Assembly: GCF_003473485.1 (NCBI RefSeq)
Contig: NC_053048.1
Span: 45,520,255 to 45,584,254 of the forward strand
Source of the DNA: Medicago truncatula
Lineage: Eukaryota > Streptophyta > Magnoliopsida > Fabales > Fabaceae
Reading direction: 5' to 3'
Length of the DNA stretch: 64,000 bases
The notes under the pieces were generated by a model that saw only the letters and a program-made list of their open reading frames with translations, made no database searches and was not told the origin of the DNA. Position numbers and translations under genes: made by a program. Positions 11,001-34,578 of the stretch are shown here, one piece after another (the stretch's first letter is position 1; every line of letters starts with the position of its first letter).

Positions 11001-11590
11001 TACTTGTCGGTTTTTAAAGTTGGAATAGAGGGTGATTTTTAAGTAACATTTTTTTAAAAGGAAAAAACATTTGTATAACAGTTTTTTTTACAACTTCTTG
11101 AATAATCTTTTTATTTGACAACAATAGAGCGTAAGAACAATATAAGAGTACGAGAGAATTGATAAAAAAAATTATCCTAAAATGATTGTTCAAATATCAT
11201 TTGCGTAGAGCACTTGATATCAAAACTCACAAGCATTAGACATAAATTATGGTTTTAAATCGCAATCAATCACGTCTCGATTCCTTGATAATATACTTGT
11301 CGGTTTTTAAAGTTGGAATAGAGGGTGATTTTTAAGTAACATTTTTTTTAAAGGAAAAAACATTTGTATAACAGTTTTTTTTACAACTTCTTGAATAATC
11401 TTTTTATTTGACAAAAACAATAGAGCGTAAGAACAATATAAGAGTACGAGAGAATTGATAAAAAAAATTATCCTAAAATGATTGTTCAAATATCATTTGC
11501 GTTGAGCACTTGATATCAAAACTCACAAGCATTAGACATAAATTATGGTTTTAAATCGCAATCAATCACGTCTCGATTCCTTGATAATAT
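11001..11590. repeat. Tandem direct duplication, 293-bp unit, two copies
   Basis: Copy 1 is 11001-11293 and copy 2 is 11294-11590. Both run from TACTTGTCGG to CCTTGATAATAT and differ by only a few indels and substitutions: a T-run length change, ACAACAAT against ACAAAAACAAT, and GTAGAG against GTTGAG. The unit contains a MITE-like TTATTTGACAACAATAGAG segment. It is non-coding. Confidence 0.85.
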
Positions 11591-11644
11591 AATGTGCGAA
11601 ATTGCAAGCAAACGTTGTTGATGCATTCTAATATGCACGATCAT

Positions 11645-13409: not shown

Positions 13410-14100
13410 AAAGCCTTATTAATTTCTTCAAACCCTCTTGATTTTGACTGGATCAACGCTTACGTGGCTCCTAATTGGACATCACGTAGGAAAATTTTAA
13501 ATTAAAAATAAATGAAAAAGCCACGCGTATAGTTTATGAATTTAAAAGAAAAAAAAGAAAAAAGGAATGGCACGTGAGATCATCATGTTCTTGTTCAACT
13601 TCTTCACCCAACACCTCCATATTTTATTGATGTTGTGTTTCTTTCTGATTCAGAAACACTTGAAGCTGGATAATGATGTTGAGCTCTATGCTTTGGGAAC
13701 TACTTCCAACTATCATCATACTCATCTCTGAAATTTTGAACCGCAATAGAATGTGCAATTGAGAAAAGTGTAGAGTCATCCACTGTTGATGCAAAGGAAC
13801 TCTAAAGTGTGGAGGCATCCACTATTGCAAACTACGTACCCTCCCTCTGTCTTGTGTTTTACAACTTATTGTTGTTGTTTTTATTGATCTGTATTGATGA
13901 TAAATCACGTGTTCCTTCCTTTTCCATTTTCTTTTTTGTTTTTTTAATTAAACAAATACATGCGTGGCTTTTTCATTTATTTTTAATTTAAAATTTTCCT
14001 ACGTGGTGTCCAGCTAGGAGCCACGTAAGCGTTGATCCAGTCAAAATCAAGGGGGTTTTGTTGCAAAAGGGGGAAAACTTAAGGGGCTGGAAAGTGATTT
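13410..14100. mobile_element. Long terminal-inverted-repeat element (Mutator-like or foldback)
   Basis: Arms of about 100 bp, 13432-13536 and 13963-14062, are inverted copies. Each contains TTGATTTTGACTGGATCAAC and the CTTACGTGGCTCC block. The right arm extends outward to an end-like stretch near 14100, while the left arm looks truncated there, so the outer limits are approximate. The interior (about 13560-13940) is less AT-rich, begins with a CACGTG, and does not match the arms; it may be captured host sequence. No transposase is present. Confidence 0.6.
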
Positions 14101-14106
14101 TTTTTA

Positions 14107-14925
14107 GGGAACTTCTACGGTACACTCACAAAATGAAGTGTACCGGTACTCCGGTTCCTTAATTTTATAAATGAACGATCATTTTTTATGTAGTAAATAG
14201 TTATTTGTCAATATTTATATTTTATAGAATAACATTTCATAAGAAAAAACATCATTTAATTATTTATAAGAATCATAGTAACTTTTTTTTTACATATTAT
14301 CGTAAAAAATAATGAATGTTCTCAATTATAAGTGATAAAAATTTAAAAAAAATAAAAAATTATTTCGTTGACACTTTTGATGAATAAGATTTAGTTATTA
14401 TAATCATAAATGATAAAAAATACTACATTTTCTCTCAAAAAAAAAAAAAATACTACATTCATCATCAGTAAGTAAACGCACTTTTGACCCCCTAACTTTG
14501 TCATAGTTGCAATTTTGACTCCCTATTAAAAAAAAAGGCAAATTCTACAGTACATCCACTATATTTGAGTGTACCGGTACACTTACTCTTTAAATTCATG
14601 GTTAAATGAGTTGTTTTTTTGAAGAAAAATATTATTTTTTATCATTTATAATTATAATAACTAAATCTTATTCATCAAAAGTGTCAACGAAATAATTTTT
14701 TTATTTTTTTAAATTTTTATCACTTATAATTGAGAACATTCATAAAATAATTAGTATGATTCTTATAAACAGTTAAATGATGTTTTTTCTTATGAAATGT
14801 TGTTCTATAAAATATAAATATTGACAAATAACTATTTACCACATAAAAAATGATCGTTCATTTATAAAATTAAAAAACAGGAGTACCGGTACACCTCATT
14901 TTGTAAGTGTATAGTAGAAATTCCC
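14107..14925. repeat. Large foldback (palindromic) element
   Basis: Sequence from GGGAACTTCTAC at 14107 is repeated inverted at the right end, GTAGAAATTCCC at 14925. The two arms are each about 300 bp (14107-14410 and 14590-14925), with several shared blocks such as GTACCGGTAC, AAATGAACGATCATTTTTTA and GTCAACGAAATAATTTTTTA. The centre (about 14450-14590) contains extra sequence, including another TCTACAGTAC end, so two MITEs of one family may have inserted head to head. A transcript would form a long hairpin. Confidence 0.75.
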
Positions 14926-15189
14926 ATATCAAATATATTAATTTTCATTGGCAAGTGTGTCTCATGTAAAACAAACTGTAGATAACAATTACTATCTTTT
15001 TGAATGGATTAATAAGTACTAACCTAGAAACATATGACACTGTTTACTCTTTCTTGTTCAATATTTTGACATAGTCATGTTTTAGTGATATGGGTGTGTT
15101 TGGAGTCCAAGGTATTGCTATTCCAATTTTTCAATATTCAAACCTTTCACAGTCAAAGCAAAACAATAAACATTTTAATTCCACTCCTC

Positions 15190-15198
15190 TATATAAAT
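15190..15198 (+). promoter_or_regulatory. TATA box of peptide gene A
   Basis: TATATAAAT lies 154 bp before the ATG and is conserved exactly at 22935-22943 in copy C. A (CATAT)n run in the leader differs by one unit between A and C. Confidence 0.6.
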
Positions 15199-15351
15199 GA
15201 GTTATGCCACCCCCTCCTTTCATCAAAACACATTAACATATCACAATTTAATTTCATCATATCATATCATATAGTTTGTGAGAATTAATAAACTCCTTCA
15301 AAGCACAACAACAGTTCATAGATTGATATTAGTTGAATCAAACAAACATAC

Positions 15352-15567
15352 ATGGCTTTCTCTTATAGTAGAATAATCCTCTTCAAAGTTCTTCTCTATG
15401 TACTAATCATCTTCAACATATTCGTTACACCTCAATCAGGAGGAGTAGATTGCAGGCCATTGTCATTGAATTATTATCAATGGTCTTGGGATCATGGACT
15501 TATTTTGCAATCACTTCCAAATGGTAATGCACCTGGATCAGGAGGAGGAGATCCTACTCATCCCTAA
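15352..15567 (+). CDS. Small secreted peptide precursor, copy A (71 aa)
   Basis: The gene starts at the ATG in ACATACATGGCT. Residues 1-28 form a hydrophobic signal peptide (Leu/Ile/Phe rich), then PQSGGVDCRPL, a central NYYQWSWDHGL and a C-terminal GNAPGSGGGDPTHP directly before the stop. There is a single cysteine after the signal. Such a layout, a short precursor with a conserved Gly/Pro-rich C-terminal tail, is that of post-translationally processed plant signalling peptides (CLE, CEP, IDA and PIP types). The tail does not fit any of those consensus motifs exactly, so I do not name a family. The protein is identical to copy C. It is expected in the secretory pathway and apoplast. Real-gene support comes from conservation of frame, signal and tail in the diverged paralogue at 29727. 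Confidence 0.8.
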   Translation: MAFSYSRIILFKVLLYVLIIFNIFVTPQSGGVDCRPLSLNYYQWSWDHGLILQSLPNGNAPGSGGGDPTHP

Positions 15568-15912
15568 TTAAGCTGCACATATATGCATTCAAATTAATTG
15601 GAACTTAATTAGGAAGCTTTACAAAGAAGAAACTATTTTTGATTTTTTTATATAGTTCTACAACGATATAGTAATGACATTAACTCTCGTTGTTGAAGTT
15701 CCACGTCTCAGTGGTTTGTATCAATTTTTTAATTTTTTTTTAGTTGCATGTCCCACATGCAATTTTTTTATATGGTATTCCGTATAATCTTGTATTCATA
15801 TTCTATTTCAATCACCTCACAGAATATATCTGAAAAAATTAGATATATTCGTATAGACTGTAGTATGTAAATTTTGACTAAAATCTAAATAAACAACTCT
15901 CTTTTTTAATGG

Positions 15913-16340
15913 TTTGCATTAGTTTACCAATACCACTTGGCGCCTAATAAGTGCGACAAACACTTATCTTGTACATAGTTTGATGTATGCAAATATTTTC
16001 CTTTGCATGCTATCTACGTGTCCTTCATATTTTAATTGATCTGTGATTTTATAAACATTATTTTAGGATTAATGGGACAATGGGGCATTTCGATTGATTA
16101 GAGAAGAGATGAGCTATAGTTTGAAAACAAATTTTTAATCGTCGTGGGACTAAATTGATTTATTTATGGACTACTAATAGAAGCCTTAACATGAAGTTTA
16201 AGAGATTAAATGTGGGATGGAATAATAGTTTATAGACCTTTAAGATAATTATATTAGTTTAAAGACTAAACTGATGAAAGAGTGATAGTTTAGAAATTAA
16301 ACTGACCGTTTATAATAGTTTAGAGACCTTTTAGCTGTTA
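15913..16340 (+). repeat. Dispersed non-coding repeat unit, uninterrupted copy
   Basis: This block (CACTTGGCGCCTAATAAG, then CTTCATATTTTAATTGATCTG, then phrases like GATAGTTTAGAAATTAAACTG) recurs at 18495-20470, where it is split by two insertions. Parts recur near 20865-21065 and 21820-21890. It therefore provides the empty-site version for the Mutator-like element at 18638 and the solo LTR at 19673. Confidence 0.7.
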
Positions 16341-17400
16341 GATTTGGTACCTTGTTTATGGCATGTGTGACTCAAAGGTAGCTCATACCTAAGATTTGAA
16401 GATAAATTCGAGTGTGTTTTCAGAAAACACAAAACACGCGCTATTGTAAGTGTTTAAACTTTAAACTAGAGGGGAATGGATTCTATCATATTGAATTGAA
16501 CTAAAACACTAGGGTTTAAAATAACATTAGTGAGTAAAATTTGAGATAAAAAACATGAAATTCATGATAACTCTTCTATCAGTAAGCTTAGCGAGGGAAT
16601 AAAAGTATGTATATAATCAAAATCACGAATGAGACAAAATTGATTGGCCAGATCTGAATATAAAACCTTTTTTCTCCCTTCTATCTTGTATGGATTTGTT
16701 TGCCAAATTAGTTAAAAGAAATAACATTTGTTCAACTATATTTGAGATAATTTTTGGGACAATATTTTCTGCCCTCTTCTTTGGGGACAAAAATAATAGA
16801 TAGAGAAAAGGGAGATAGAGATAGAATAAAAATACAATATGAATATAAAAGAAAAAATATATTGTTCCAAAATAATCGTGTAAATATCACGTTTCATCAT
16901 ATAAACTGTCCACAAATACACAATGAGGAATGTTATTATAATCCACCACAAATTTCCTATCATATAGTAGATTTAATCTCGAAATAAATTTATTGAAGAG
17001 CGATTTACAAGAGAAAACAATCACTTTTGAAGGATCATTTCCTTTCAAAATCAATATTTATGCATCATTCAAAGAGTCATTTATTTAGATTTTAGTCAAA
17101 ATTTACGTACTACAACCTATATGAATATATTTCAGTTTTTTCAGATATATTATGTAAGGTGATTGAAATTGAATGTGAATACAAGAATATAAGGAGTACC
17201 ATATAAATTTTTTGCATGTGAGGCATGCAACTAAAAAAATTAAAAAATTGATGCAACCCACTGACACGTGGAACTTCAACAACGATTGTTAATGTTATTA
17301 CTACTTGGATCGAACTATATAAAAAAAAAAAAAAACTAATTTCTTATTTGTAAAGCTTCCTAAGTTTCAATTAATTTGAAGGCATATATGTGCAGCTTAA

Positions 17401-17616
17401 TTAGGGATGAGTAGGATCTCCTCCTCTTGATCCAGGTGCTTTACCATTTGGAAGTGATTGCAAAATAAGTCCATGATCCCAAGACCATTGATAATAATTC
17501 AATGACAATGGCCTGCAATCTACTCCTCCTGATTGAGGTGTAACGAATATGTTGAAGATGATTAGTACATAGAGAAGAACTTTGAAGAGGATTATTCTAC
17601 TATAAGAGAAAGCCAT
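17401..17616 (-). CDS. Small secreted peptide precursor, copy B (71 aa)
   Basis: The gene has the same length and signal peptide as copy A and differs by two residues, both in the C-terminal tail: Asn to Lys and Gly to Arg, giving GKAPGSRGGDPTHP. It is read from the minus strand, in inverted orientation to A. A TATA box (TATATATA, 17768-17775) and the leader are conserved, so it should still be expressed. Two replacements in the presumed mature peptide and none in the signal peptide or spacer is notable. The product is presumed secreted; receptor and role are unknown. Confidence 0.78.
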   Translation of the reverse strand: MAFSYSRIILFKVLLYVLIIFNIFVTPQSGGVDCRPLSLNYYQWSWDHGLILQSLPNGKAPGSRGGDPTHP

Positions 17617-17767
17617 GTATGTTTGTTTGATTCAACTAATATCAATCTATGAACTGTTGTTGTGCTTTGAAGGAGTTTATTAATTCTCACAAACTATATG
17701 ATATGATATGATGAAATTAAATTGTGATATGTTAATGTGTTTTGATGGAAGGAGGGGTGGCAACTCA

Positions 17768-17775
17768 TATATATA
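17768..17775 (-). promoter_or_regulatory. TATA box of peptide gene B
   Basis: TATATATA on the minus strand, at the position equivalent to the TATATAAAT of copies A and C. Confidence 0.5.
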
Positions 17776-17965
17776 GGGAGTGGAATTTGAAGTGTTTATT
17801 GTTTTACTTTGACTTTGAATATTTGAATATCAATACCTTGGACTCCAAACACACCCATATTTACGCGCGACCCATAACACTAAAACACGACCATGTCAAA
17901 AAATTGAACAAGAAAGAGTAAGCAGTGTAATATGTTTCTATGTTAATTAATTCAGATATAGTTAC

Positions 17966-18494
17966 TAGTATTTAATTAAATTTAAATTCTTAGATTATTT
18001 ATTGATAATAGTTATAATTACAAGGTAAAAAAAAATGACATACAGCCAAAAATTTAAGAAAATGTCAAATTACTTGACTTTGTCAAATTGAGTGGATGGA
18101 AGGTTCAAGGTTCTTTTATCCGAGTGCAACAGTTTTACCAAATTAAATTATCGATCTATTATAGTGACAAAATTATTTACCAAAATGGGGTAAGTTGTAT
18201 TACGGAGATAATTATCGATATATACAAGCTTGCTTCCATTGTTCATAAACCCTTTTAAAACAATTTTGTAGAAACAATAATGTATTTTAAGAAGCTCTTT
18301 GAGAATGACCATATTCTGAAGATCGAAAGCCAACAACATAAAACTAACTTTGTTACAATATTATAATATACCTTTGCTTTATTATTCTAAATTGAATATT
18401 TTGTAGATGATGATTATGATTGTATATAGTTCTCACCAATGTGTTAGGTTTTGCTATTGTATCTTCAGAGAGGACCCTTGGGACTATTGTTCCA
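17966..18494. other. Intergenic, AT-rich
   Basis: No gene or bounded repeat is visible between the promoter side of peptide copy B and the next repeat unit. Confidence 0.4.
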
Positions 18495-18628
18495 GTTTTA
18501 TTTTGGTTTGGTTAATAGTTTAGTTCACCAATATCACTTGGCACCTAGTAAGGGCCACAAACATTTATCTTGTACATATTTTGATGCACGTAAACATTTT
18601 CCTCTCCGTGATATCTTGGTGTCCTTCA

Positions 18629-19420
18629 TATTTTAATGAGTAAATTACACTCCCCTCTCCTTAAAGATGCTTGAATTACACTCTCCTCCCCTCTTAAGTT
18701 AAAATATACACTTTACTCCAATTTCTTTTTTTTTTTTTTATGTTAAAATTTATACTCCCATCCCTTATAAGATGCTTGAATAACAAACTTCTCCCTTAAT
18801 AATTAAATATGCACTACACTTTAATCTATTTGAACATAAATAAATATTCTTATAATATATATTAATTTTGAATCACCATTTAAGAAAAATTAATTCATTT
18901 CTTTATAGTTTAAATGTAAATGATAATTAAATTTAAATATATTGTTATTGATTTTATAAATTAGAGTATAAAATTAACTTTTAAATAATCATGCTTTAAT
19001 GATTTTAGTAATTTTTCACATATTTTAATTTTGTTTTGGGTTGTTTCATATTTTATAATAGGGTTTAAAACTACATGTTAATGAAATTGTGAATAAATAA
19101 TAGCGAAAAATATGTATTCAATTTTTTATTATATTAAAATAGACCCGCAATACTATTTTTTTTTTTAAGTGTGTTAAATTATTATTTTTTGCTAGATTAT
19201 TAGAAATAATAAAAATGAATATTGAGGGAGTAAAGTGTAGATTTTAACATAAGAGGGGAGGGGGATGTAATTCAACCTTCTCTTAGGAGAGGAGAGTGAA
19301 ATTTTTTCTAATATGTTTTGAAAAAGAGGGGAGGGTAGTGTATATTTTAACTTAAGAGGGGAGGGGAGTGTAATTCAAGCATCTTTGAGGAGAGGGGAGT
19401 GTAACTTACTCTATTTTAAT
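18629..19420. mobile_element. Mutator-like TIR element with 9-bp target duplication
   Basis: The element is 18638-19411 (774 bp). The left end begins GAGTAAATTACACTCCCC and the right end, inverted, begins GAGTAAGTTACACTCCCC. Inverted ends match for about 75 bp. The nine bases TATTTTAAT are duplicated at 18629-18637 and 19412-19420. The homologous uninterrupted block at 16028-16036 has a single TATTTTAAT, an empty site. The interior is AT-rich and non-coding. Confidence 0.88.
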
Positions 19421-19672
19421 TTATCTGTGATTTTATAAACATTATTTTATGATTAGTTATATAGGTTTGACCAATGGAACATTGGAAAATTTCAATTGAT
19501 TAGAGATGAGATGAGGTATAATTTGAAATTGAAATTTTAAATGTAGAGGGACTAAATTGATGTATTTTCATATTTTAGGGACTAAGAGACTAAATGTTGA
19601 ATGGAATAGTAATTTAGTGACCTTTTAGTTGATTATAATAGTTTAAGGACTTAATTGCTGAGATAGTGATAG

Positions 19673-20448
19673 TGTTGTGAATTCGGACTCAAAATCACAC
19701 CAATACAAACTATGATGTGTGGAGCAAAGGAAAATAGTAACAAAAATCAAAGTGAACACAAGCAACGACAATAATGACAACACCTAGATCAAATCTAGTA
19801 ATCAAAGTGAAAAGCTCAAAACCACAAGCAAAAGATAAGGAGAGAAGAGAGAAACAAACACACCAAAGATTGTTGACCCAGTTCGGTCCAACTTGACCTA
19901 ATATGGGGGAGAGATAGATCTCTCCAATCCACTATCAATGAGTTCTTACAAAGGGATACAAATGGGTTACAATAAATTAGCTTAAACAAGCTCACAAAGA
20001 ACAACCCTAATTTCTACCCATTTTCCCAATCTCACAAATGAACAAGACACTCAATGATTTTCGCTCACCCAAGGTGTTTACAATGTTTCCCAACCCAAGA
20101 GAACTCTAATCAAAGACCCTCAACCCTAAAGTTACCTCCTTTGATTTCCCAAGTTTTCCTCTCTTGAAGTTCTCTCTCTTCTTCCTTCAAAAATGAGCTG
20201 AAACACTTAAATAGTACAAAGTGACAGACAAAATCGCGCCGCGCTAGTGAAAATCGCACCACGGTTGAAGCGTACGACCCAAGGCACGACAACCTTATCC
20301 ACAAATTGCGTCACGCCTGCACAAAATCGCGCCACGATTTGCTTTAGTAAAAACCATCCATTCTGCCAGCAAAATCGCGCCACGCCTTTGAAAATCGCGC
20401 CACGATTTTCAGCTTTCACAACATCACAATTTGAAGACAATTTCAACA
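19673..20448 (-). mobile_element. Probable solo LTR of a retrotransposon
   Basis: The 776-bp segment starts TGTTGTGAATTC and ends ATTTCAACA, i.e. TG...CA with matching TGTTG/CAACA ends. It interrupts a repeat unit that is continuous at about 16284. Flanks GATAG (19668-19672) and GTTAG (20449-20453) look like a decayed 5-bp duplication. On the minus strand a TATA-like CTATTTAAG follows a block with six copies of a CGTGGCGCGATTTT-like motif, so transcription probably ran leftwards. There is no internal domain, hence a solo LTR. Confidence 0.7.
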
Positions 20449-20470
20449 GTTAGAAATTAAATTGACCGTT

Positions 20471-21064
20471 TTTTCTGTTTGTTTTATTGTCAAATAAAAA
20501 TATGAATTTTTTTTTCCTTCATAAAAAATTATGTATTTGTTTCACAAGGATAACTTTATAATTTAAATAGAATATATTTTTTTATCATGTCAATAGCACG
20601 TGTGCACCAAACGCAGGATAGGATAAAATAACACTATCATCTTTTTTTTCTTCAAGTGTGCACCAAACGCATGATATGATAATGGTTATCCTGTCACTAT
20701 CATTGCCCATCCTCATCCAACTTCTTATCATATCATGTCTATATTATTGCGCACTAAATAGGCCCTTAATTCTTTTGCATCAAATTGATCTAAAACACTC
20801 AGTAAAATTTGAGATAAAAAAAATGAAATTTGTGATAAATCTCCTATGAGTGATAAAGTTAAGGCGTCTCAATTGATTAGATAAGAGAAGATATATAACG
20901 TATTCAATTACAAATTTTTAAAAGTTAGAGGACTAATTTGTTATTTTTTATGATAGTTTGAAGACTAAATTGATGTATTTTTTAGTTTTGGGGACTACAA
21001 ATAGACAGCTTAACGGAAAACTTAATTAGGTGGCTATGGTTGGATGGAAGAATAGTTTAGAGCA
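20471..21064. other. Non-coding repeats
   Basis: Contains two copies of GTGTGCACCAAACGCA (near 20600 and 20655) around a TATCCTG/GATAGGATA inverted arrangement. From about 20800 it holds another diverged copy of the dispersed repeat unit. No gene is seen. Confidence 0.4.
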
Positions 21065-21806
21065 ATGACAAATGAACAAAAAATATTTGACACAAATTCA
21101 ACATCATGGATAGTTTGGACATTTCACTCATAAAACAGGGACAGTTTTGTCAAAGCCTCACACTCCAAGGTCAGGAACTGTCTTCTTTCTCTCTCTGTCC
21201 GCCATTTTCAACAAAGGGCAGTAGGCCACCGCCAACACTTCACCGACCGTTTCTCCACCGACTGAGTGATGATCCTCCGTCAGACTTCGATTCCTTCGTT
21301 GCTGAACGTCTCCGGCAGATAGTAATAGTGACTAATGTCGAAATCGGAATGAAAATCTAGGTCCGTTTTCGGTTAGTCATTAAATGCAGATGTTAGTTAG
21401 ATTATGAATATCTTTCATTATCTGAATTCTAATCTTGTGGAACTAAGAAAAAATTCATAAGGAGAAGATGATGTGGTTGGTGTGAGTTTTGATGAATCAA
21501 TGCTTGATTGATTGTAATTATTTATTTTTAAGAAAAATAAAAAATAAAGAAATAAAATTGCAGAAGAACGAGTATTTGTCATGTCAGCGTGGGTGATGGC
21601 AGTGGAGCATTCCTTGGTGTTTTGTATGACACTGGAAGTGGAGCAACAATGGAGTGGTGCGAACGAAGGGAAATGAAAAAGAAAAGAAAAAATAGAAAGG
21701 AAAATAGAGTATAAAGTAACAGTGTAAACAAATGGGAAATACATTATAATTATATAGTGGTGTCTGTATTGTGTTTAAAAAATTGTGTTCATTTATCATT
21801 TTTGAA
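21065..21806. mobile_element. Mutator-like TIR element with GC-richer interior
   Basis: The left end AATGACAAATGAACA and the right end TGTTCATTTATCATT are inverted copies. Matching continues inwards for about 40 bp (ACACAA, GACACCAC-like). It interrupts the dispersed repeat unit. The interior 21106-21360 is open, CT-rich and includes a Pro/Ser/Leu-rich frame (CPPFSTKGSRPPPTLHRPF) that looks like captured gene sequence, source not recognised. The exact target duplication could not be fixed. Confidence 0.6.
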
Positions 21807-21989
21807 TGAGCTTATGATCATTTTAGTTGATTATAGTAGCTTAGAGTCTAAATTGATGATAGAGTGGAAGTTTAGTGACGAAATTGATTGTTTATTAGAA
21901 GAAAAAAAACGTTTAAAATTTTATTAAAGAAGTAACTAAGAACAACATTAAAAATCTTTAAAAAAAAAAAAGAACAACATTAAAAAAAA

Positions 21990-22600
21990 GCATTAAAAGC
22001 CTTACAAACATACAAAAATTCCAAACAGTGCAATCAAGAGGATATAAACCGAGGCACATTCTCATATTAGTTTTTTTTTTTAGTTAGTCATATCTTATAA
22101 CATTTTGTTGAATTCTTCCAGCCCAGATACAAAGTTATTGACTACAATGAATAATTTGTCATTTTCGTTATAATCAGAAAAAAAAAATTCATTGAACAGC
22201 CAAAGACGGTGAGCACAAGAAATCCAAAGATCAGAGCGAAAAAGCATAAACATGAAAATAAAACCCATAGGCTTCATGTATTACTACAATAGCCGCAAGA
22301 AAAGTGCTTGCATATCTGTGGTTTTTTAATAGGAAAATGTTAACAAGTGTTTGAGAAGCACTCTTTAAAAATCATAATTAATAATTTTTTATGGTACATT
22401 CAATGCATTATATAAATTGAAATAATCTCTTTTAATAGTTCTAGCTTTTAACCGGCAGCCCAAGAAGTATAAGAGAAAATCAAATTGTATTACTATTAGA
22501 ATAATAATGCAGAGGGATATTAGAATATTGTAGCAAAGTCTCGACGGTATAGAAAATATTATTGTTTCTACAACTTCTTTTTAAGAGAGTTTATGAAGAT
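21990..22600. repeat. Duplicated non-coding block (partner at 25860-26380)
   Basis: Shared landmarks in the same order in both copies are ACAAAGTTATTGACTA, AATAGCCGCAAGAAA, GTGGTTTTTTAA, GAGAAAATCAAA and GTATAGAAAATATT-like sequence. The copies have diverged by many indels. It lies just before peptide copy C. Confidence 0.65.
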
Positions 22601-22934
22601 GATATTGGTACAACCATTCAATAACAATTTTGTGACATTTTATTGGTAAAAACAACATAGAAAAAAAAAAAAGACAAAATATGAAAATAATATGAGTATG
22701 AGAGAGTTGTAGAAAAGTTGTCACAAAATAACCGATGTTATTTTTTTTTTGTGAACAATGACACATAGGCACATGTTACACTGTTTACTCTTTCTTGTTC
22801 AGTTTTTTGACATGGTCATATTCTAGTGATATGGGTCGCGGGTTTGGAGTCCAAGTTATTGCTATTCAAATTTTTCAATATTCAAAAGCCTTCACAGTCA
22901 AAGCAAAACAATAAACATTTTAATTCCACTCCTC

Positions 22935-22943
22935 TATATAAAT
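22935..22943 (+). promoter_or_regulatory. TATA box of peptide gene C
   Basis: TATATAAAT within CTCCTCTATATAAATGAG, identical to copy A. Confidence 0.6.
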
Positions 22944-23101
22944 GAGTTATGCCACCCCCTCCTTTCATCAAAACACATTAACATATCACAATTTAATTTC
23001 ATCATATCATATCATATCATATAGTTTGTGAGAATTAATAAACTCCTTCAAAGCACAACAACAGTTCATAGATTGATATTAGTTGAATCAAACAAACATA
23101 C

Positions 23102-23317
23102 ATGGCTTTCTCTTATAGTAGAATAATCCTCTTCAAAGTTCTTCTCTATGTACTAATCATCTTCAACATATTCGTTACACCTCAATCAGGAGGAGTAGAT
23201 TGCAGGCCATTGTCATTGAATTATTATCAATGGTCTTGGGATCATGGACTTATTTTGCAATCACTTCCAAATGGTAATGCACCTGGATCAGGAGGAGGAG
23301 ATCCTACTCATCCCTAA
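23102..23317 (+). CDS. Small secreted peptide precursor, copy C (71 aa)
   Basis: The encoded protein is identical to copy A: signal peptide about residues 1-28, PQSGGVDCRPL, and the C-terminal tail APGSGGGDPTHP. The promoter is nearly the same as A for more than 250 bp, with one extra CATAT unit in the leader and small changes further upstream. Identity of protein against visible divergence of the 3' flank fits recent duplication with selection on the protein, or gene conversion. Function is not known; a secreted signalling peptide is the best reading. Confidence 0.8.
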   Translation: MAFSYSRIILFKVLLYVLIIFNIFVTPQSGGVDCRPLSLNYYQWSWDHGLILQSLPNGNAPGSGGGDPTHP

Positions 23318-24206
23318 TTAATTGGAAGAAGCTTTACAACGAAGAAAATTAATCTTCATTTTTTTATATATATAGTTCGATTAATGACATTAACTCTCAT
23401 GTGAAGTTCCACGTGTTAGTGGGCTATATAGTATGGTATTTTTTTTAGTTGCATGTTTCACAATCACATGCAATATTTTTAGATGGGTATTTCTTATATT
23501 CTTGTATATATTCACATTCAAATTCAATTATATCACAGATTATACCTGAAAAAATTTAGATATATTCTTTTAAGTTGTAGTATGTAAATTTTGACTAAAA
23601 TCTAAATAAACGACTCTTTCAATTTGGTGCATAAATATTGATTTTAAAAGGGGTTTTGCTCCTTCAAATGTGATCGCTTCTTGTCAATGAATATGTTGCC
23701 CATGTTCAAAATTGACTAGGTGTATCCATATATTTTTAATTCCCCATATATAAACTTATATAATGGTTGAACTTTGGCAAACAAATACAGTTACCAAAAT
23801 TTAGAGATGAAAATATATGATTCCCTCACTAAGCTTACTGATGGAAAAACATACGACGTTTCATATTTTTTTATCTCAAATTTTAGTTGCAAGTGTTGTT
23901 TTTTATAAGAAAAATTGTGGATGATGTTCAACACAAGGAATTCTTAGGAGGTCACTAGTTTAAGTGTTTATGGGTCAAGTTTTAAGTGTTCAGTTCAATC
24001 TAATAAAATAGAATCCCTTAGGTTTAAGCCCTTATAAGGACACGTGATTTATGAGAACACAATTGAATTTGTCTTCAAATCTTAAGTTTGAACTAGTTGT
24101 GTATCACATTCAATAAACAATGTAGCAAATAGTACAAAACAAATTTTTTTTATATAAAAATAGGAAAAATAAAAAGAAAATAAACTAAGGAATAAGACCA
24201 GGTGTA

Positions 24207-24530
24207 CTACGGGTAAAGATCCTCTCCATTTATAAAAGTAAATGGAAGACACAACTTCCAAATGGAGACACAACTTCGGGGTTCGGAAAGAGTATCAAAA
24301 AAAGTCCAAAAGAAATTATTATCATGACCAAAATTGGCAAGAAAATCAGCACAAATGTTGACTTCTCTGTAAATGTGTGCAAGAGAGACATTCTTATTAG
24401 GAGCACGAAGCATGCAAAGCGCATCAACAATGAGAGATCAGAGGAAGGCAGTAGTACAAAATCCGTTGTTTACAAAGTTAACTACACTCACGTAATCAAC
24501 TTGAGGAAATGTGGAGGCGACTAGCAGGCT
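24207..24530 (-). pseudogene. LINE RNase H-domain remnant
   Basis: The minus strand reads VDYVSVVNFVNNGF, a stop, then NVSLAHIYREVNICADFLAN. The H-I-Y-R-E-x-N-x-x-A-D-x-L-A-N block is the end of the LINE RNase H (RVT_3) domain. One in-frame stop and both ends truncated show it is dead. Confidence 0.7.
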
Positions 24531-24696
24531 TTAAGCTATAATAAAGACACCACAACTCAGCATGAACAATCGAGAAGGTTTTTATATTACAATGTAAACT
24601 TTTAATGAAATGATCTGGATGATTTCTATTATTACAAAATCAAATATTCACGGTATAAAAAGAAAACACTTATTAATTAAAACTTGAAAGTTATGA

Positions 24697-25785
24697 TAAA
24701 ATAAATGTTAAATTATATTTTTGGTCCCTTAACTATTTAATTGATTTCGGTTTGGTCCCTTAACTAAATTTTGATTTATTTTGGTCTCTTAACTTTCTCT
24801 CTGTTACACGTTTTGGTCATTTCCGTTAAATTTAATTAAAAACGTTAGGGTTTAATAAAAAAATATTAACTGCTGTACACATGTCATTATAACATTGGTT
24901 CTGGAAAATTTTATTATATTTTTTCCTTATCTTCAACTTCTTCATTAAAATTTCCGGATTTGTTTCACATTTTTCAGATCTTCATCTTCTCACAGCAAAA
25001 AAAAAATCTCTTTTCTTCTCTTCTCTTTTCAACAATAACATATACCCAATCTCAATTTCAACAACAACAATTCCATCAAATCATTTAAGCAACAACAATT
25101 CCAACAATTCCAGCAATTTCTTTCTCAAATCGTAAATTGTTGAATTCGTTTTCCCCAATTCTGGAACCCTAATCGTTTTTCCATTTTCCCCAATTTAAGA
25201 ACCATAATCAATTTCGTTTTCCCCGATTGATATGTTTTCTGTGTTATGATTATTGAGAGTGTGATTTGTGTGCGGTTTGCTGTGTTTGTTGTCATGGATG
25301 TGGTGCAATTTGTGTGCCTCATTTGTTATTTTTCTATTTGGTCTTTGGACTTATGGTTTTGGGTTATGATTATTGAGAGTTGAAAGATGATGATGATTAT
25401 GATTTTTGTTTATGCTTTTGGAATTTGTATGGAAAAGATAATTGGAAGATGAGTTAGAAATAATTTTTCTTGTTTATGGTTTTTGTTATAAAATTTGGAT
25501 TTCTTTTTGTTTATGAAGTTCTGAGTTTGTGAATGAATTTTATGAGTTTCTGGATTTTTTTCTTGTTGTTGTTGATGGTGTTGTTGCTGAGTTTTTAAAC
25601 CCTAACGTTTTTTAATTAAATTTAATGGGAAGGATCAAAATGTATAACGGAGAGAAAGTTAAGGGACCAAAATAATTCAAAAGAGAAAGTTAAGGGATCA
25701 AAATAAATCAAAATTTAGTTAAGGGACCAAACCGAAACCAATTAAATAGTTAAGGGACCAAAAAGGTAATTTAGCCTAAAATAAA
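24697..25785. mobile_element. Mutator-like TIR element, 1071 bp, 9-bp target duplication
   Basis: The element is 24706-25776. The nine bases TAAAATAAA stand at 24697-24705 and 25777-25785. Inverted ends of about 160 bp carry repeated TGGTCCCTTAACTA phrases and AACGTTAGGGTTTAA. The interior (about 24960-25580) is leader-like: CT-rich, then CAACAACAATTCC repeats, then a stretch resembling a 5'UTR. It may be captured host sequence. No transposase frame is present. Confidence 0.85.
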
Positions 25786-25859
25786 AGTTACAAGAATAAA
25801 CCAAGTACGATCAAATCTTTACAATTTATAAAAAAAAAAAAAAATCTTTACAAACATAG

Positions 25860-26380
25860 AACATTTTAAACAATGTGTGATCGAAAGGATCTAAAATGAG
25901 GCTCGTTCTCAATTTCTCATAATTTGAATGGTTCAAATTGTTAGTCATATCTTCCAGCCCTGATACAAAGTTATTGACTAAATTGAATAATTTTTCAAAT
26001 TTTTTGAATAATCAAAATAAATTAACCCATTGAACAAAATGTCACAGAACACTGATATCAGAATCAAAAGATAAAAAGTATCATCAAGAAATTAAAATAC
26101 AACAGTATGCTTCATTTACAATACCCCCAAAATTGAAGTGAACAATAGCCGCAAGAAAGGGGATTGCATTGTGGTTTTTTAAAAATCCTTGCTTAACTTG
26201 CAACTCAAGAAATATATAATAATCCGATTAAGAGAAAATCAAAGTGTTTTAGAATAATGAAGCAGGGGGACTTTTCCAAAGTGTACTAGAATCATGCAGC
26301 AAAATCTTGATAGTGTAGAAAATATTGTTTAATTGTAAAAAAAAAAAAAAAAAAACTTCTTAGTATGAATAACCCTCTTG
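25860..26380. repeat. Duplicated non-coding block (partner at 21990-22600)
   Basis: Collinear with 21990-22600, including the AATAGCCGCAAGAAA and GTGGTTTTTTAA landmarks. It ends at a poly-A tract near 26335-26354. Confidence 0.6.
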
Positions 26381-26782
26381 GCATAAACCTCAGTCATTAA
26401 AAACGATTGCAATAGTTAAATAAAAGTAATATTTTTAACCTAGTTCACATGTGCAAATTTTTGTGAGATTTACCACTACTTTATCAAATAGCACAAGGGT
26501 TACATTAATGATAAAAATCTCCCAAGTATTTTTGGTCCCCTGTATTACTATACTAGGTTTTTACCGACTCACGAAAGCAAATGGCTGCCTTTGAGAGCTT
26601 ATGTCAAACAAGTACAAGTATAACATTAACTCTATTTTATTTTTTGGTGGTAGTTATTTTGGTCTTTAAATGTATAATGATTGGTTAAAATAGTCAAAAC
26701 TTTTCAAAATACTACTAATGATTGGTCATTAAAATCTTAGAACGGACCCTGACCTAGTTTAGCAAGTATATATTTGCAAGTC

Positions 26783-26949
26783 TCGTTTAATTCCATTTTT
26801 TTTTTTTTTTGTAGATAGACGAAATGGCAAAGCCATTATAAACTCACACACACAAGTGGAGGTACTGGGGTTCAAACCCCGGTCATGGCATCTGACCTAA
26901 CTATTTCTACATTTTGCCAATTGAGCTAGGACTTCTAGATCGTTTAATT
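26783..26949 (-). mobile_element. tRNA-derived SINE with target duplication
   Basis: The element is 26793-26939 on the minus strand. Its head AGTCCTAGCTCAATTGG contains a pol III A box (TAGCTCAATTGG), and GGGGTTTGAACCCC about 35 bp on is a B box. The body ends in a T run on the + strand (26796-26810), the poly-A tail. TCGTTTAATT is repeated at 26783-26792 and 26940-26949. It is not a functional tRNA gene: the acceptor stem and anticodon arm cannot be formed. Confidence 0.8.
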
Positions 26950-28440
26950 AACTCTTTAAAGTCTTGCTTTTAAAATAAATAAAAACCTCTTTAAAGTCTC
27001 CTTAAAGTCTCGTTTAATTCCTCTAATCCACTTCATTTTTTTTGTTGAATGGGACTTGTGACTTACAAATGAAGGTCTTATTACGCTAGAACACAGAATG
27101 TAGGACTATGTCGTACGGTGTTATTCTCTCACGCGTATCTTCAAAATTAACTTGTTGAGACGTGTAACATGATTTTTTATATTTTGGTCTCAGGGACTTG
27201 TTCTAACTTTTCAATCTTCTTTATTTTTAATAATTTCTCTTTTGATTTTGTATATAATATATTGTTGTAGATGGAATGTAAATTTTAATAAGGCCATTCT
27301 ACACACAAAAATTTACAAGCCCAGAATATATAATAGAAATAGAAATGTTACTAATTAGGAAACATATTTCTTCTATATCCAACATTATAAAAAAAAAATT
27401 AAAAAAAAACATTTTTTTTTAAAATTATAACAAAGTGATATGGAGTCCCCTCCCATCCTTATGGAACGAAAAATCAGAATGAGGGATAATATATAAAAGT
27501 TAAAATATTTATGATATCAAAGAAATACTTGTAAATTATTAAATTTTCAAGTATTACATGCATTTACAATTATTTCTTTTGTAAATGCATGTAAAACTAA
27601 CTGCATGGAAATTTAATATTTTATTCAATAAATTTGAACTACAGCTTGACTTTCTCCTTTGACTCATACTTAATTAGATGTTTGGCGCGTCCAAGTTACT
27701 TGTTTAAGATTCAGTTTTAATTAAAAGTCAATTTAAATATCTTCAAACCACGAGCAGTTAACAAGTCAAACCAACATGGTAGTGTTCATTCTAGCTAAGG
27801 ATTTATTTATTCTTTTGGTTTCACACATGTTCATTTCACGGGAGATATATCTTCAAGTACTCGCTTAGATGCAAAATGTGTGCATTAGAATTTTATGTGT
27901 TTGTTTTATTTAATATGTTATTATAAATCGGCGTTCAGACAAAAAATGGACAGAATTGAATAGATCTAATTCAGAACCGTTTGATAGATTTAAATCTTCT
28001 ATATCTTATGAATATATCACGAGATAAATAATCCGTCTGTCTGCTTTTTATTGTTTTTAATTGTATGTTTATTTTATCACATATGTATATATTAGTTCTT
28101 GTTGAACAGCGGAATTGTTTCTATTTTAATGGGACTAAACTGATTTTGTTTAGAAAAATCTTTAAATATTTTAATAAAGATAAAATTGTGAATACAATAA
28201 TTTAAATAAATGATATAATTAAAATAGGGAAATATCTAGCTTAAACTCATTTATTTTCGATATAGATTTTAATATTACACGTCGATGAGTAACTATTCGT
28301 TTAGTGCAGATGCATTTGATGTTTTAAAGAGTAAGTATTTGACATAAAAGCACAAGACAGAACAACACCATATAAGATAGAACAATATAATGAATAACTT
28401 TTGGTCTTATACAATTTTTGATAGACAATACTATTTTGGT
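26950..28440. other. Intergenic, AT-rich
   Basis: No gene, RNA gene or clear repeat is seen. The phrase GTCTCGTTTAATTCC occurs both at about 26780 and 27007, a small local duplication around the SINE. Confidence 0.4.
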
Positions 28441-28444
28441 ATTT

Positions 28445-28878
28445 TTAGGCTTTGTTTGCGAGTTTGAAGAGAGAAGGGAATGGAATGAATAGCTTTGGGG
28501 GGTGAGGGGGGATATAGGGAAAATTTGATAAATCTTTCACATTTTTTGAAAGTGTATTTTTTAAGAGAGTGATAAATTAATGGTTTTTTTTAGTGATAAA
28601 TTATTGCTTATGATTAATATATTTTTAATTTTAAGAATATTATGACGACATATTATATTTGAAGAATTCATATAAACCCGCCCAAAAATCCCCCAAAACT
28701 TTCTACCAATACAATTATTTAGTTCCCCAAATAGGAAGAGTTTTATATTTTGAAGAAAAATAAACCCCTATAGCCCTCTCCTCCCAATGTCCTATATTTC
28801 TTCCACTCATTCCTTCCTTTTTTTTTTCTTTCCAAACTCTCAATTCCCTTCTCCTCCAGACTCACAAACAAAGCTTTA
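28445..28878. mobile_element. Tourist-like (PIF/Harbinger) MITE
   Basis: The element is 28448-28875, flanked by TTA on both sides (28445-28447 and 28876-28878). The ends are GGCTTTGTTTGCGAGT and, inverted, AGCTTTGTTTGTGAGT, followed by related purine-rich inner sequence. TTA duplication with GGC(C/T)TTGTTTG-type ends is diagnostic of Tourist MITEs. It is non-coding. Confidence 0.75.
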
Positions 28879-29720
28879 GACAATTTATAAATGGGACAAA
28901 ATTTCAGTTTTTGTCCAATATCTTGCCTTCAATTTATATCCCGTCCCTAAAATAGTTTTAAGATTCAAACACCATACAATTAGATTTGTAATGTTATGTC
29001 GTTCCTTTTTGTAGTAGACGAAATGCACCCGGAGAGACACGTTTGTGGCAATTAAATTGCTATAATTCGGATATTTAGCTTTCAAAAGCTAAAGGCCAAT
29101 ATGCAACCTAATAGTGAAATTTTTCGTCGGTACATCCCTTGTCTACTCTTCATAATGGTCGAATTTATTCTGTCACTATGTCGATTGATTCTTATCAATT
29201 TGCACAAATCTTGTTTGTATTGAGAGAATCCCTTTTTTAAAATAAGTAAATAAATAACATTTTAGAGAACTAAAATGAACATTAATCTGGTATGTAAAAA
29301 GGTTTACGTGCAGTGCTAAAATTCAATAATATAGGAAATAATCTATATACACTAGTGAAAGTTTTGCAAAGGAGATTAATGTAATTACTAATTACTCCAA
29401 CCTCATGCGAGCTCTTAAGAATTTGAGGTTAATCGCGATTGATTTGTAAGTGTGTATATGCAGCAATAAAAAATGAACTTATGCCTATGTACAAATTAAA
29501 TCACTCTAATAATAAATTGTACCAAAAAAACATTTAATCGCAAATGAATACATTTTTTTTTTTTATTACAAAAGGGATCGAAGCCAACAAATTAATACAT
29601 CTTATTTCAAGTTAGTTCGGTTAGTGAACTATAAGCAACACTGAATGAACTTAATTTAAGTCAGAAGTTCAAAAAAATTAATGTAACCATTAATTTACAA
29701 ACTTTTGTCTATATGGAAAA
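28879..29720. other. Intergenic, 3' flank of peptide gene D
   Basis: No gene is seen. The sequence near 28890-28960 resembles a degenerate dispersed repeat (phrases like CCCGTCCCTAAAATAG). Confidence 0.35.
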
Positions 29721-29726
29721 AATGAT

Positions 29727-29939
29727 TCAGGGATGAGTGGGTTCTCCTCCGCCGGACGGTGGCGCAGGGCTGTTTGCAAGCAATTGCCAAACAAGCCCAT
29801 ATTCACTCGACCATTGATCATTATGTACTAACAATGGTCTGCAAGCAACTCCAGATTGAGGAGAAGCAATAAAAATGGTAAACAAGATCAACAAAATCTG
29901 TTGAACTGTGAAAAGCATCTTCTTATGAGAGAAAGCCAT
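29727..29939 (-). CDS. Small secreted peptide precursor, diverged copy D (70 aa)
   Basis: A paralogue of the three peptide genes upstream. The signal peptide starts MAFSHKKMLFTV, followed by SPQSGVACRPL, QWSSEYGLVWQLL and the terminal NSPAPPSGGGEPTHP. The conserved parts are exactly PQSG-x-x-CRPL, QWS, GL-x-x-Q-L and the Pro-Ser-Gly-Gly-Gly-[Asp/Glu]-Pro-Thr-His-Pro tail, while the linker has changed. Retention of tail and signal across that divergence supports a functional secreted peptide family. The tail resembles the Pro-Ser-Gly core of CLE/IDA/PIP peptides without matching any consensus. The gene is on the minus strand, and its flanks are not part of the recent duplications. Confidence 0.8.
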   Translation of the reverse strand: MAFSHKKMLFTVQQILLILFTIFIASPQSGVACRPLLVHNDQWSSEYGLVWQLLANSPAPPSGGGEPTHP

Positions 29940-31758: not shown

Positions 31759-34578
31759 TCACAGACCAATTGTGCTCAATACAGCACTAGTAATATCTAC
31801 ACGGCGAGTGAAAGGCGATTTTGTGACCATTGTTCTCCATGCCTTCCTTTTCGGATTATAGATTTGAAAGCACATTGTTCCTGTCTTCTTATAGGATCTG
31901 GACCTTCGACTTTCTGTGAAATCATCATCATATAAATGTGTCAATACATACAGCTCGCCAGCTACTACAACAACACCAAAGGCTGAACCACGGGGAGGTC
32001 TTTTTGGCACACAAGTCTCGTATACCCAACGATTTGAGGACATTTCATATCTGCAAGTTGTATCAATAAAAAAGTGAATCACAGATTTGCAACTTCAGAA
32101 GTTCTGGAATTGTAATTTGCAAGCAAACAAAGCAAAGCCTTAGCCATCAAGGATATTGTATGCTCTACTATGTACACGGGTTGCAAGAAGTTCAAACAAC
32201 ACAGTACATGGATTTATATGAATGGGTAAAAAATATATTAAAAAGCACAAAAACCAATCAGGATGTGTGTAAACAACATAGTGATGGATCCAATTGGCCC
32301 TAACGAAGAGCAATGTAAATTGGCAACCATTCCATTTTTGGTTCGCTAGATGATCGATAAGCAAATTAATTAAACAAAAAGGTTAACTATCTCAGTCTCA
32401 ATTTTCTAGCAAAGCTTCATCATCCATTTTCCTATACAGTGTTGAATCAATGGAGCATTGTAAATTGGCAACCATTCCATTTTTGGTTCGCTAGATGATC
32501 GATAAGCAAATTAATTAAACAAAAAGGTTAACTATCTCAGTCTCAATTTTCTACCAAAGCTTCATCATCCATTTTCCTATACAGTGTTGAATCAATGGAG
32601 CATTGGTTGTATCTCAAATCGACTGGTGAAAGGTAAGGTAGGACCATTCTCCACCACATAATCATGGACCAGTAAAGCATAGCTTTGGTTATGCATGTCT
32701 CGTCTATACATTGATCAAGATCCACAGAAGGAAAAATGTTCAAGTTCAATAAAACACAATACTTCACACATACCAAAGTAATAAATGCGATTGCAAGCAT
32801 TTGTCTTAAATTTCTATTATTCTATATGCCAGCACCTGGTCTCCATAATTGAGAATCTCATGTGCATCAAATTATTTCAATATCACAAACATCTCAACGT
32901 TTATGCTTCATACTACAGTATTAATTTAAGAATACACATTGTCTGCACCAGAAGTAATGAACAAATAAATACTGTGAATGACAAACACATGAAGCAATAC
33001 ACCTACATGATGTACTTTTTTATCCTAATAATTTATGCACATTGCCACAATTAGTTACAGGCTTACAGCGCTTAGAATATAAGTATTAACATGATGTAAG
33101 CAGTCCCACATCTACTAACATTCTTTTGTCATATCCGAATCAAAGCCTAAATCTCTACAACCCAATCCCGCCCAACCATTTAATAGTATGACATTGATCA
33201 CACTTCCGGTCAGGAAATGACATTGATCACAAAACACATGTCATCACGTCATCTAAGAAATAATCATTTGTCTTGATACCTGATTATTGGAACAAAGCTA
33301 TGAACAAGTTGAATGGGAAATGTCGGTCTAAGAAATTCCAACACATGTCCAAATGCGTTAAGTGTTAAAAGACAACAAGGAATTCAAAATATATCTTGAT
33401 TTCACGCTGAATTGTTTCCGGTCAGCAATGCATAACATGGGAGGAAATGTTACAAATCAAAGCCTAAACATACCAAACTTAATAGTATGAAATTCATACA
33501 CAAATCAACAACATTGAAGCAAAATCTAACAAGCATATGATTCAGAGAAGTGCTTAATACTTATAGCAACAAATTAATTAACCAAACCCAAAATGAGCAA
33601 GTACCTGAAAATCTCGTTGACATCAAGCATGAAAACCAAAGGAGAACCACAATCATCATCACCAACAACAATCTTCCCAGCCCTAACATTCTCCCCATCG
33701 CCCCACACATCTCCAACCTCACGCCACAAACCATCCTCCAATCCCATCACCACCGCATCTCTACAATACTCATCCACCGGAAACACCCCCGAAACCGTCA
33801 TGGAACCACTATAACCACCAACCACCCTAAACTCCCTCTCTCCCCTCTCCACAAATCCAACACACCCGGCACGAAAACACGGCAACGGATCCATTTCCTC
33901 CCACCGATCCTCCTCCACATCGTAACGCTCCACCGCCCTAATCCTCGATCCCGCCGCTCCAAATACCAAATGCCGGGATCCACCTCCGGCAACCACAATC
34001 TCACCCGGATTCGAAATCACCGCATAAGCGAAACTTCCACGAGGTGAAATCATGGAAGCACGATTCTCCCACGAAAAATCACGAAAATTGAAACGAAACA
34101 CCAACGAGGAAGACGAAGGACGATTAATCGGAAAAGAGCGAGTATCGAAAACCGATCCACCGATGATGTAAACATGAGAACCAAACGGAACGGCGGCGAA
34201 GTTACACAAACCGTAAACGTGAGGGTTACACGGCATAGGAGGAAGTGGACACCACGCAACGGCGTTAACGTCGAAGAGATACGGCGTGGAAATTGAAGGA
34301 TCTTGAGGGAAAATACAAATAACACTGTTGCGGTTATGAAGTAAGAGATTGTTGAGAAATGATTTTGATGAAAGTGCAGATTTCCATGATTTGGAAATTG
34401 ATTTCAGACGAGCGTGATGTGCGTAAGGAATCATTGAAAGGATTGTTCGTGAAACTTCGTTTGGAAGATTTGGGATTAGGACTGATGATGGTGGTGATGG
34501 TGGTGGTGGTGGTGGTGGTGATGAATCCTCCGTTGTCGACAATGGAGGGATATCGCCAGAATTCTCATCGGAATTCAT
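31759..34578 (-). CDS. OR23: F-box/kelch-repeat protein, OR23-like (two exons)
   Basis: Coding sequence is complement(33605-34578, 31759-32050), 421 aa, with one 1554-bp intron (GT at 33604, AG before 32050) that splits an Arg codon. After a Ser/Pro-rich head with a run of seven prolines, an F-box follows at about 34-75 (LIPNLPNEVSRTILSMIPYA). Kelch-type beta-propeller repeats come next, with their Gly-Gly pairs: VYIIGGS, IVVAGGGSRH, FRVVGGYSG. The blocks CIFPQDPSI, CNPHVYGLCNF and SGVFPVDEY and the tail IYNPKRKAW match Arabidopsis OR23 as I remember it. The F-box recruits the protein to SKP1-CUL1 ubiquitin ligases; the propeller binds substrate, which is unknown. The gene appears complete and intact. 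Confidence 0.92.
32315..32605. repeat. 145-bp tandem duplication inside the OR23-like intron
   Basis: Copies 32315-32459 and 32460-32605 both run from TGTAAATTGGCAACC-like sequence to GAATCAATGGAGCATTG and are almost identical (TCTAGC against TCTACC). It lies wholly in the intron. Confidence 0.85.

Follow-up and report, generated by a model that had tools for sequence, protein, structure and literature searches.

The 64,000-nucleotide stretch of the Medicago truncatula genome analyzed here (NC_053048.1, positions 45,520,255 to 45,584,254, hereafter the window) carries four short genes, copies A–D, which belong to a well-supported, conserved, multi-copy family of small secreted-peptide precursors. 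We consider it reasonably probable that this family is a legume-specific, cysteine-free offshoot of the CTNIP/SCREW peptides acting as a secreted ligand. Descent from the CTNIPs, taken alone, is the safer claim and, judging from the profile comparisons described below, a likely one. The secretion, processing, receptor and function of the peptides are inferred. As the family shows kinship with the CTNIPs and lacks their pair of cysteines, it is called CTNIP-related and is not filed as CTNIP.

Precursors encoded in the window

Copies A (15352..15567, forward strand; signal-peptide-like start, RPLSLNYYQWSWDHGLILQSLPNGNAPGSGGGDPTHP), B (17401..17616, reverse strand) and C (23102..23317, forward strand) encode precursors of 71 amino acids (aa), and copy D (29727..29939, reverse strand), an older gene from a separate clade, encodes one of 70 aa with the tail APPSGGGEPTHP. 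The coding sequence of C is the same as that of A (0 differences in 216 bases), while B differs from A at two of 216 bases, both of which change an amino acid of the tail (N to K and G to R); copies D and A show 51% identity. All four have a hydrophobic start, a CRPL motif, a middle part with a tryptophan and (D/E)PTHP directly at the stop codon, and the tails read GSGGGDPTHP, GSRGGDPTHP and PSGGGEPTHP. Inspection of the open reading frames (ORFs) thus agreed with an earlier note on this DNA as to the place, length, CRPL motif and ending of the four genes; the PQSG-x-x-CRPL block that it described is found in the fourth copy (PQSG-VA-CRPL), whereas in three copies three residues separate the two motifs (PQSG-GVD-CRPL).

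Within 37 aligned rows of the family, the most constant columns were RPL, the GL..Q.L motif, the Pro-x-Ser core and the final His, and the arginine of RPL was invariant (37/37), so that the conserved arginine after the signal peptide, a feature described for IDL and PIP precursors (PMC4526919), is present. Because each of the 58 listed rows has Cys, Ser, Gly or Ala directly in front of this arginine (the relative P0065, introduced below, has alanine there), the cysteine of CRPL probably occupies position −1 of the signal peptide and would be removed with it. Cysteines were absent from all 60 mature sequences (64 family rows without six over-long gene models, to which copies A and B of the window were added), i.e., the two cysteines spaced by 9–11 residues that characterize CTNIP/SCREW peptides were not found; P0046 and P0059, which are among the six over-long models left out, have cysteines in an extra C-terminal stretch. 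Histidine is the penultimate residue in 47 and proline the last residue in 43 of the 60 mature sequences, and in the IDA peptide (PIPPSAPSKRHN) the histidine is likewise penultimate. The AlphaFold model consists of an N-terminal helix (residues 3–25), a short low-confidence helix (47–54) and a disordered tail, with a mean predicted local distance difference test (pLDDT) score of 64.

Relatives among public proteins

Three protein searches gave 3, 34 and 64 rows, and the last two together comprised 64 family sequences, one of them window copy D itself, and two other proteins; the widest search used a legume-only profile of 15 members against 5.77 billion proteins (E ≤ 10). The family described in the earlier note is therefore beyond chance. 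The named family members originate exclusively from legumes and represent 17 genera (Medicago, Lathyrus, Vicia, Glycine, Vigna, Phaseolus, Cajanus, Canavalia, Flemingia, Psophocarpus, Mucuna, Sphenostylis, Lupinus, Crotalaria, Sesbania, Arachis and Senna), and the other rows come from contigs of unstated organism. Since several rows carry neighboring locus tags (VNO77_17384, 17385 and 17387 of Canavalia; CR513_56814 and 56815 of Mucuna), tandem clusters seem to be common.

A tree of 65 rows (four CTNIP and 61 legume sequences; copy C was omitted as identical to A) had good support for 23 of its 62 inner branches, and the split between CTNIP and legume sequences reached 98/92. With the root placed on the CTNIPs, the Senna sequence formed the first branch among the legume rows, with the fork joining the other 60 at 90/90, i.e., below the level starred by the tool. 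Copies A and B grouped with Vicia and Lathyrus sequences, and D fell into a different clade, also holding a Lathyrus sequence, so the A–C and D lines seem to have split before Medicago arose. In P0034 of Senna tora, the RPL...L.LQSLQR unit occurs twice within the precursor, as if two propeptides were fused.

A Pfam scan of the window copies, their relatives and the CTNIPs gave nothing above the family cut-offs, only weak matches at chance level. The record of P0007, a Medicago truncatula protein, bears the precomputed Pfam label PF27884.1. Partial searches of open-licence papers (with the tail strings, soybean, bean and lupin gene names, and CTNIP combined with legume terms) found no description of the family. 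The suggestion of an undescribed signaling-peptide family therefore held as far as a conserved family without a description found in print is concerned; it did not hold in that the family is linked with the named CTNIP/SCREW peptides through basal legume members and two non-legume relatives.

Relationship to the CTNIP/SCREW peptides

The CTNIP/SCREW peptides are phytocytokines, a known family of plant stress hormones, and their receptor kinase is HSL3, also called NUT. As reported by Rhodes et al. 2022 (PMC9191895), CTNIPs are ligands of HSL3 and depend on two conserved cysteines for their activity, for binding to the receptor and for recruiting BAK1; the confident CTNIP set was filtered for two cysteines 9–11 residues apart. 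The only two rows named from outside legumes that were retrieved with the legume-only profile at E ≤ 10 were P0065 of Tripterygium (E 1.9e-5; RPLGGEEWFKKDGLLLQSLQRGPVTGSGPNPCTYIPGRGTGTC) and P0066 of Eucalyptus (E 0.08; RILHENGQLPIEEGLLLQSLQRGAVPSSGASSCTNIPGSGGSTSC). Both carry the CT(Y/N)IPG motif, with 10 and 11 residues, respectively, between their two cysteines. In the PDB database, P0065 matched two chains that spell CTNIP, 9w1s_C (8.8e-7) and 9wum_B (0.028), and in the Medicago genome it matched, at 2.2e-9, a locus at C1:17.18 Mb (L011), which is probably the published MtCTNIP (Medtr1g044470). Further CTNIP-like loci were found at C1:36.66 Mb (two loci) and, as a divergent pair, at C1:39.74 Mb and C7:54.70 Mb; by sequence, Medicago thus holds genuine CTNIPs and the cysteine-free family alike. 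The divergent pair (L010 and L013, respectively) reads NPCSTVPGRS(R/K)GRC, reaches 36 and 39 bits against a CTNIP profile that does not include it, and possibly constitutes a separate CTNIP subgroup. MtHSL3 expressed in N. benthamiana responded to MtCTNIP (PMC9191895), which implies that the CTNIP–HSL3 module exists in Medicago.

With the mature-only family profile, P0065 and P0066 scored 32.2 and 28.2 bits, the CTNIP locus L012 19.3 bits and the probable MtCTNIP 12.4 bits, and none of 3000 shuffles reached any of these values; L010 and L013 scored 10.0 and 7.0 bits, which were reached by 0–1 of 3000 shuffles. Reciprocally, a CTNIP profile built without P0065 and P0066 (two Medicago loci and a PDB stretch) scored these proteins 70.1 and 44.5 bits, vs. 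4.2 and 8.9 bits with a three-sequence IDA-like profile. P0065 is thereby shown to be related to the CTNIPs; the draw is not independent, however, since the members of that profile were themselves found with P0065. For the Senna member, P0065 scored 28.9 bits vs. 6.0 bits for the best IDA-like sequence, and for Glycine P0055 the values were 24.9 vs. 16.7 bits.

A joint alignment revealed that the legume tails follow CTNIP to about the first cysteine and then end: opposite the CTNIP stretch SGPNPCTYIPG..., the terminal residues are SSPNPIHS in Senna, SSPDPIRP in Glycine and SKGDPTHP in Canavalia. The legume family therefore retains the RPL...LLLQSL..GP.PPSG half of CTNIP and ends about where the cysteine core begins. 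The two groups also have in common, by sequence, a short, putatively secreted precursor, an arginine right after the putative signal peptide, the LLLQSLxxGPxxxSG block and a Pro/Gly-rich C-terminal half; they differ in that the legume chains lack the CxxIPG...C core, mostly end with THP, IHP or RP and are, among the named rows, confined to legumes. A putative relic of the CTNIP core directly after the stop codon of copy A (15568-15597), with the same stretch behind B, was noticed after the fact and set aside: the in-frame LSCTYM(H/P)SN is absent from C and D, and an in-frame CTY occurred in 24 of 20000 shuffles, so that it is probably a chance match.

Copies in the Medicago genome

The window is part of contig C7 of the genome searched (429.9 Mb, 42 contigs). 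When the whole genome was searched with copy A, the matches were the four window copies plus four intact relatives in a stretch of about 15 kb on contig C1, and a search with the C1 protein returned those eight, a fifth C1 copy in pieces and three matches at chance level (E 1.5–3). Among the best candidates, to which the scoring was confined, family matches at E < 0.01 were thus limited to two clusters, that of the window and one on C1. Of the four intact C1 copies, three encode one protein, identical to P0007, although the first of these differs from each of the other two by two bases. The fifth copy (C1:34939846-34940047; L016 and L017) is broken by internal stops, and its open piece still ends with FLPRGPSKPTTPDGIHHP. 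The window ORFs of at least 80 codons, compared with 100 kb around the C1 cluster, gave 0 matches at E ≤ 1e-4 with low-complexity masking on, a result uninformative on the peptides, since three of the four peptide ORFs are below the 80-codon cut and masking was on.

The coding sequences of A, B and C together with about 120 bases upstream were 97–100% identical per 60-base bin in most comparisons (the lowest bins, at the coding end, showed 91–93%, with gaps), whereas further out the identity of the flanks drops to roughly 70–93% and then similarity is lost. Around copy A, the duplicated segment spans approximately 14992..15891 (forward strand), its likeness to B and C fading near −360 and +540 from the ATG. 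Between A and C, the 200 bases upstream contain no substitution (one 5-base indel), and the region 240–480 bases after the ATG is 79–85% identical. A TATA-box-like element (TATATA, 15190..15195, forward strand) lies 162 bases upstream of the ATG of A, and such an element also occurs at −159 (B), −167 (C) and −157 (D). Within the C1 cluster, copies L006 and L007 are 99% identical in the gene-bearing bins and about 50% identical in most flanking bins, while L007 and L008, with 94–98% identity in most downstream bins, look like a more recent pair. The idea of three recent copies in duplicated segments thus agrees with the near-identical coding sequences and is too simple for the much more diverged flanks. 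Near-identical genes amid diverged flanks fit gene conversion that kept older duplicates alike or, alternatively, equally strong constraint on every base.

The nonsynonymous and synonymous substitution rates (dN/dS, NG86 method) of A vs. D were 0.334/0.919 for the whole frame (i.e., 0.36) and 0.265/0.834 for the mature part, and those of D vs. the C1 copy were 0.351/0.784; overall, and with uncertainty, these values fit purifying selection.

Alternative explanations

The rival explanations overlap with one another and with the reading of a CTNIP-derived secreted ligand. An IDA-like origin constitutes the main rival, because it is indistinguishable from CTNIP descent in small profiles that leave out the two bridging proteins. 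According to this explanation, which we regard as rather unlikely, the family is a diverged IDA-LIKE (or PIP-like) branch, in which SGPSKRHN turned into SGGDPTHP and which is still read by HAE/HSL2-type receptors. It was first suggested by the tail of the C1 copy (FLPRGTPSKPSTPSPIHP), and the family consensus (LPNGPAPPSGGDPTHP) gives a gap-free alignment with the Medicago IDA-like locus L037 (LPKGPVPPSAPSQCHN), with the histidine in the same place; the arginine after the signal peptide agrees with it as well. It was demoted because the wider search brought CTNIP-type proteins and the head-to-head scores favored these: the best IDA-like sequence reached 19.2 bits with the family profile, vs. 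32.2 bits for P0065, and the Senna member, the first-branching one in legumes, scored 1.9 bits with the IDA-like and 15.5 bits with the CTNIP three-sequence profile. Moreover, no row found at E ≤ 10 in the two wider protein searches was IDA-like by sequence, although the word prefilter could have missed such rows, and the defining elements of IDA/IDL, S(G,A,V)PS followed by (R/K)(R/K)HN (PMC4526919), are missing from the four window copies. It should be added that a GPxPPSGPS-type core is common to IDA-like and CTNIP peptides (L037 and L012); CLE, CTNIP, PIP, CEP and IDA were grouped by a PSGP core in one paper (PMC11331138), and in a review the CTNIPs are called sequence-unrelated to IDA, CEP and PIP (PMC12907539).

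Several observations weigh against the reading of the family as a CTNIP-derived secreted ligand. Once P0065 and P0066 are set aside, the link becomes weak and lacks specificity: when three-sequence profiles are compared, only 33 of 60 members score higher with CTNIP than with IDA-like, the remaining 27 not scoring better with CTNIP, and P0007 (17.0 bits with the IDA-like vs. 5.7 bits with the CTNIP profile) and P0029 prefer IDA-like; the hhalign values are 9e-6 for CTNIP and 2e-5 for IDA-like. With six-sequence profiles they become 5.2e-7 and 3.2e-6, respectively, the CTNIP set then including P0065 and P0066. The six IDA-like sequences (five from Medicago and one from Arabidopsis) score 8.2–19.2 bits with the family profile, the highest value (L042) being level with CTNIP L012 and above the probable MtCTNIP; L037 (14.5 bits) was reached by none of 3000 of its own shuffles, and Arabidopsis IDA by 0–2 of 3000. 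The window copies score low against any single relative (at best 10.5 bits for D and 17.6 bits for A), and the legume-only profile retrieved no CTNIP chain from PDB at E ≤ 10 (a profile including P0065 and P0066 found one at 0.22). Many rows come from unnamed sources, so that the restriction to legumes holds for the named rows only. The mature part of A vs. the C1 copy gave a dN/dS above 1 (0.774/0.418; 36 gapped codons, NG86). Finally, conservation spans RPL to the final His, i.e., the middle of the precursor is as strongly conserved as the tail, unlike in typical peptide hormones, the precursors of which usually have a variable middle part (PMC4526919). CTNIP descent consequently rests on the intermediates. 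A clear assignment of every member to a named family, which the earlier note had considered, was accordingly found only at the level of the whole family and by way of intermediates such as P0065 and P0066.

The spread of conservation from RPL to the final His, together with the predicted helix at 47–54, would also suit an active unit comprising the whole mature chain of about 35 residues, e.g., a short antimicrobial or wall-associated peptide, and not a C-terminal fragment. We consider this improbable, as the predicted tail is disordered and the overall model confidence is as low as given above, the mature part contains no cysteine and, by eye, no strongly cationic stretch, and kinship with known ligands argues against it. 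Of comparable, low probability is a modulator or antagonist of CTNIP–HSL3 signaling, in which the N-terminal half of the ligand competes without recruiting BAK1. This explanation is compatible with CTNIP descent and agrees with the presence of the module in Medicago and with the conserved part spanning the stretch just before and around the CTNIP GPxPPSG, the cysteine part for binding and co-receptor recruitment (PMC9191895) being gone; in turn, the cysteines are reported there to be needed for receptor binding itself, so that binding may be lost altogether in a form without them. An explanation of the window copies as relics without function or as frames carried by transposons seems very improbable. 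The broken fifth copy of the C1 cluster would fit it, but the four window and four C1 copies are intact, matches at E < 0.01 are confined to two clusters and not dispersed, relatives occur in many legumes, the dN/dS of A vs. D is 0.36, and the neighbors of the window copies include cytochrome P450, bHLH and F-box/kelch genes. The transposon-encoded frame, named in the earlier note as an alternative, thus found no support.

Proposed mode of action and comparison with other peptide families

If the family is a CTNIP offshoot acting as a secreted ligand, removal of the signal peptide in front of RPL, which is conserved, would yield a propeptide of about 35 residues that contains no cysteine. By cleavage near LPNG|xAPxSxGGDPTHP, a protease might then release the Pro/Ser/Gly-rich C-terminal peptide, which may carry hydroxyproline. 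The freed peptide would act extracellularly, through a receptor kinase of the HAE/HSL group with leucine-rich repeats. As the two cysteines needed for HSL3 binding are gone, activation of HSL3 in the known way is most likely lost, and the signal could be received by an HSL3 that has diverged or by some other receptor of the HAE/HSL type; alternatively, the peptide could modulate HSL3 without activating it. That the receptor has changed is, nevertheless, doubtful. Equally tentative is the more detailed scenario of a CTNIP/SCREW gene that was left without its cysteine core, acquired by convergence a tail of the IDA/CLE type, with histidine in the penultimate position, and switched receptor within the HAE/HSL clade, giving rise to a legume-only signal kept in homogenized tandem clusters.

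The earlier statement that the tail fits no IDA/IDL, PIP or CEP motif as defined in print was borne out by the window copies. With IDA/IDL the family has in common an LPxGPxPPSG-like block, a histidine near the end and the arginine after the signal peptide, but the window copies end with His-Pro at the stop codon, without a variable C-terminal extension. A Pro/Ser/Gly-rich C-terminal ligand region with a histidine at or near the end is also found in PIP/PIPL and CEP, and neither the SGPS core with a terminal GxGH of the former nor the terminal SPG(I/V)GH of the latter (both as defined in PMC4526919) occurs in the four window copies. Some tails of the family, e.g., SVPDPTHG, show the P-x-x-(D/N)-P-x-H spacing of CLE peptides. 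CLE peptides typically have features such as Gly-Pro at positions 6–7, a terminal HN or HH and Arg at position 1, which are not seen in the window copies when these are read against that consensus. In a single Medicago ORF (L047, C2:5234888-5235085), an IDA-like SAPSKRGN is followed by a PIP/CEP-like SVPSPGAGH end, and a double-ligand precursor is possible there.

Other features of the window

Pfam domains identified genes for a cytochrome P450 (2828-4426), a bHLH-MYC transcription factor (7873-9390) and an F-box/kelch protein (33574-34605). Just upstream of copy A (13430-14925) there are adjoining inverted repeats with arms of 133–182 nucleotides (nt), 88–92% complementary, resembling a folded-back mobile element. 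Direct repeats of 99% identity were found at 11120-11591 (176 nt, spacing 296) and, head to tail, at 32308-32597 (145 nt). A frame with the transposase-associated domain PF13963 (51981-52697) points to a DNA transposon remnant in the right half of the window.

Significance

The published confident CTNIP set, filtered on two cysteines (PMC9191895), would miss such descendants by design. Grasses are reported to keep HSL3 and to show no clear CTNIP (PMC9191895), and we speculate that this absence could have a similar cause. A cysteine-free family that keeps the first half of the ligand offers a natural test of the role of the cysteines and of receptor change by peptide ligands. If the peptides are active, they would represent a signal restricted to legumes, a clade in which other peptide hormones, CLE and CEP, regulate nodulation (PMC12907539), and the family may thus be a separate legume signal.

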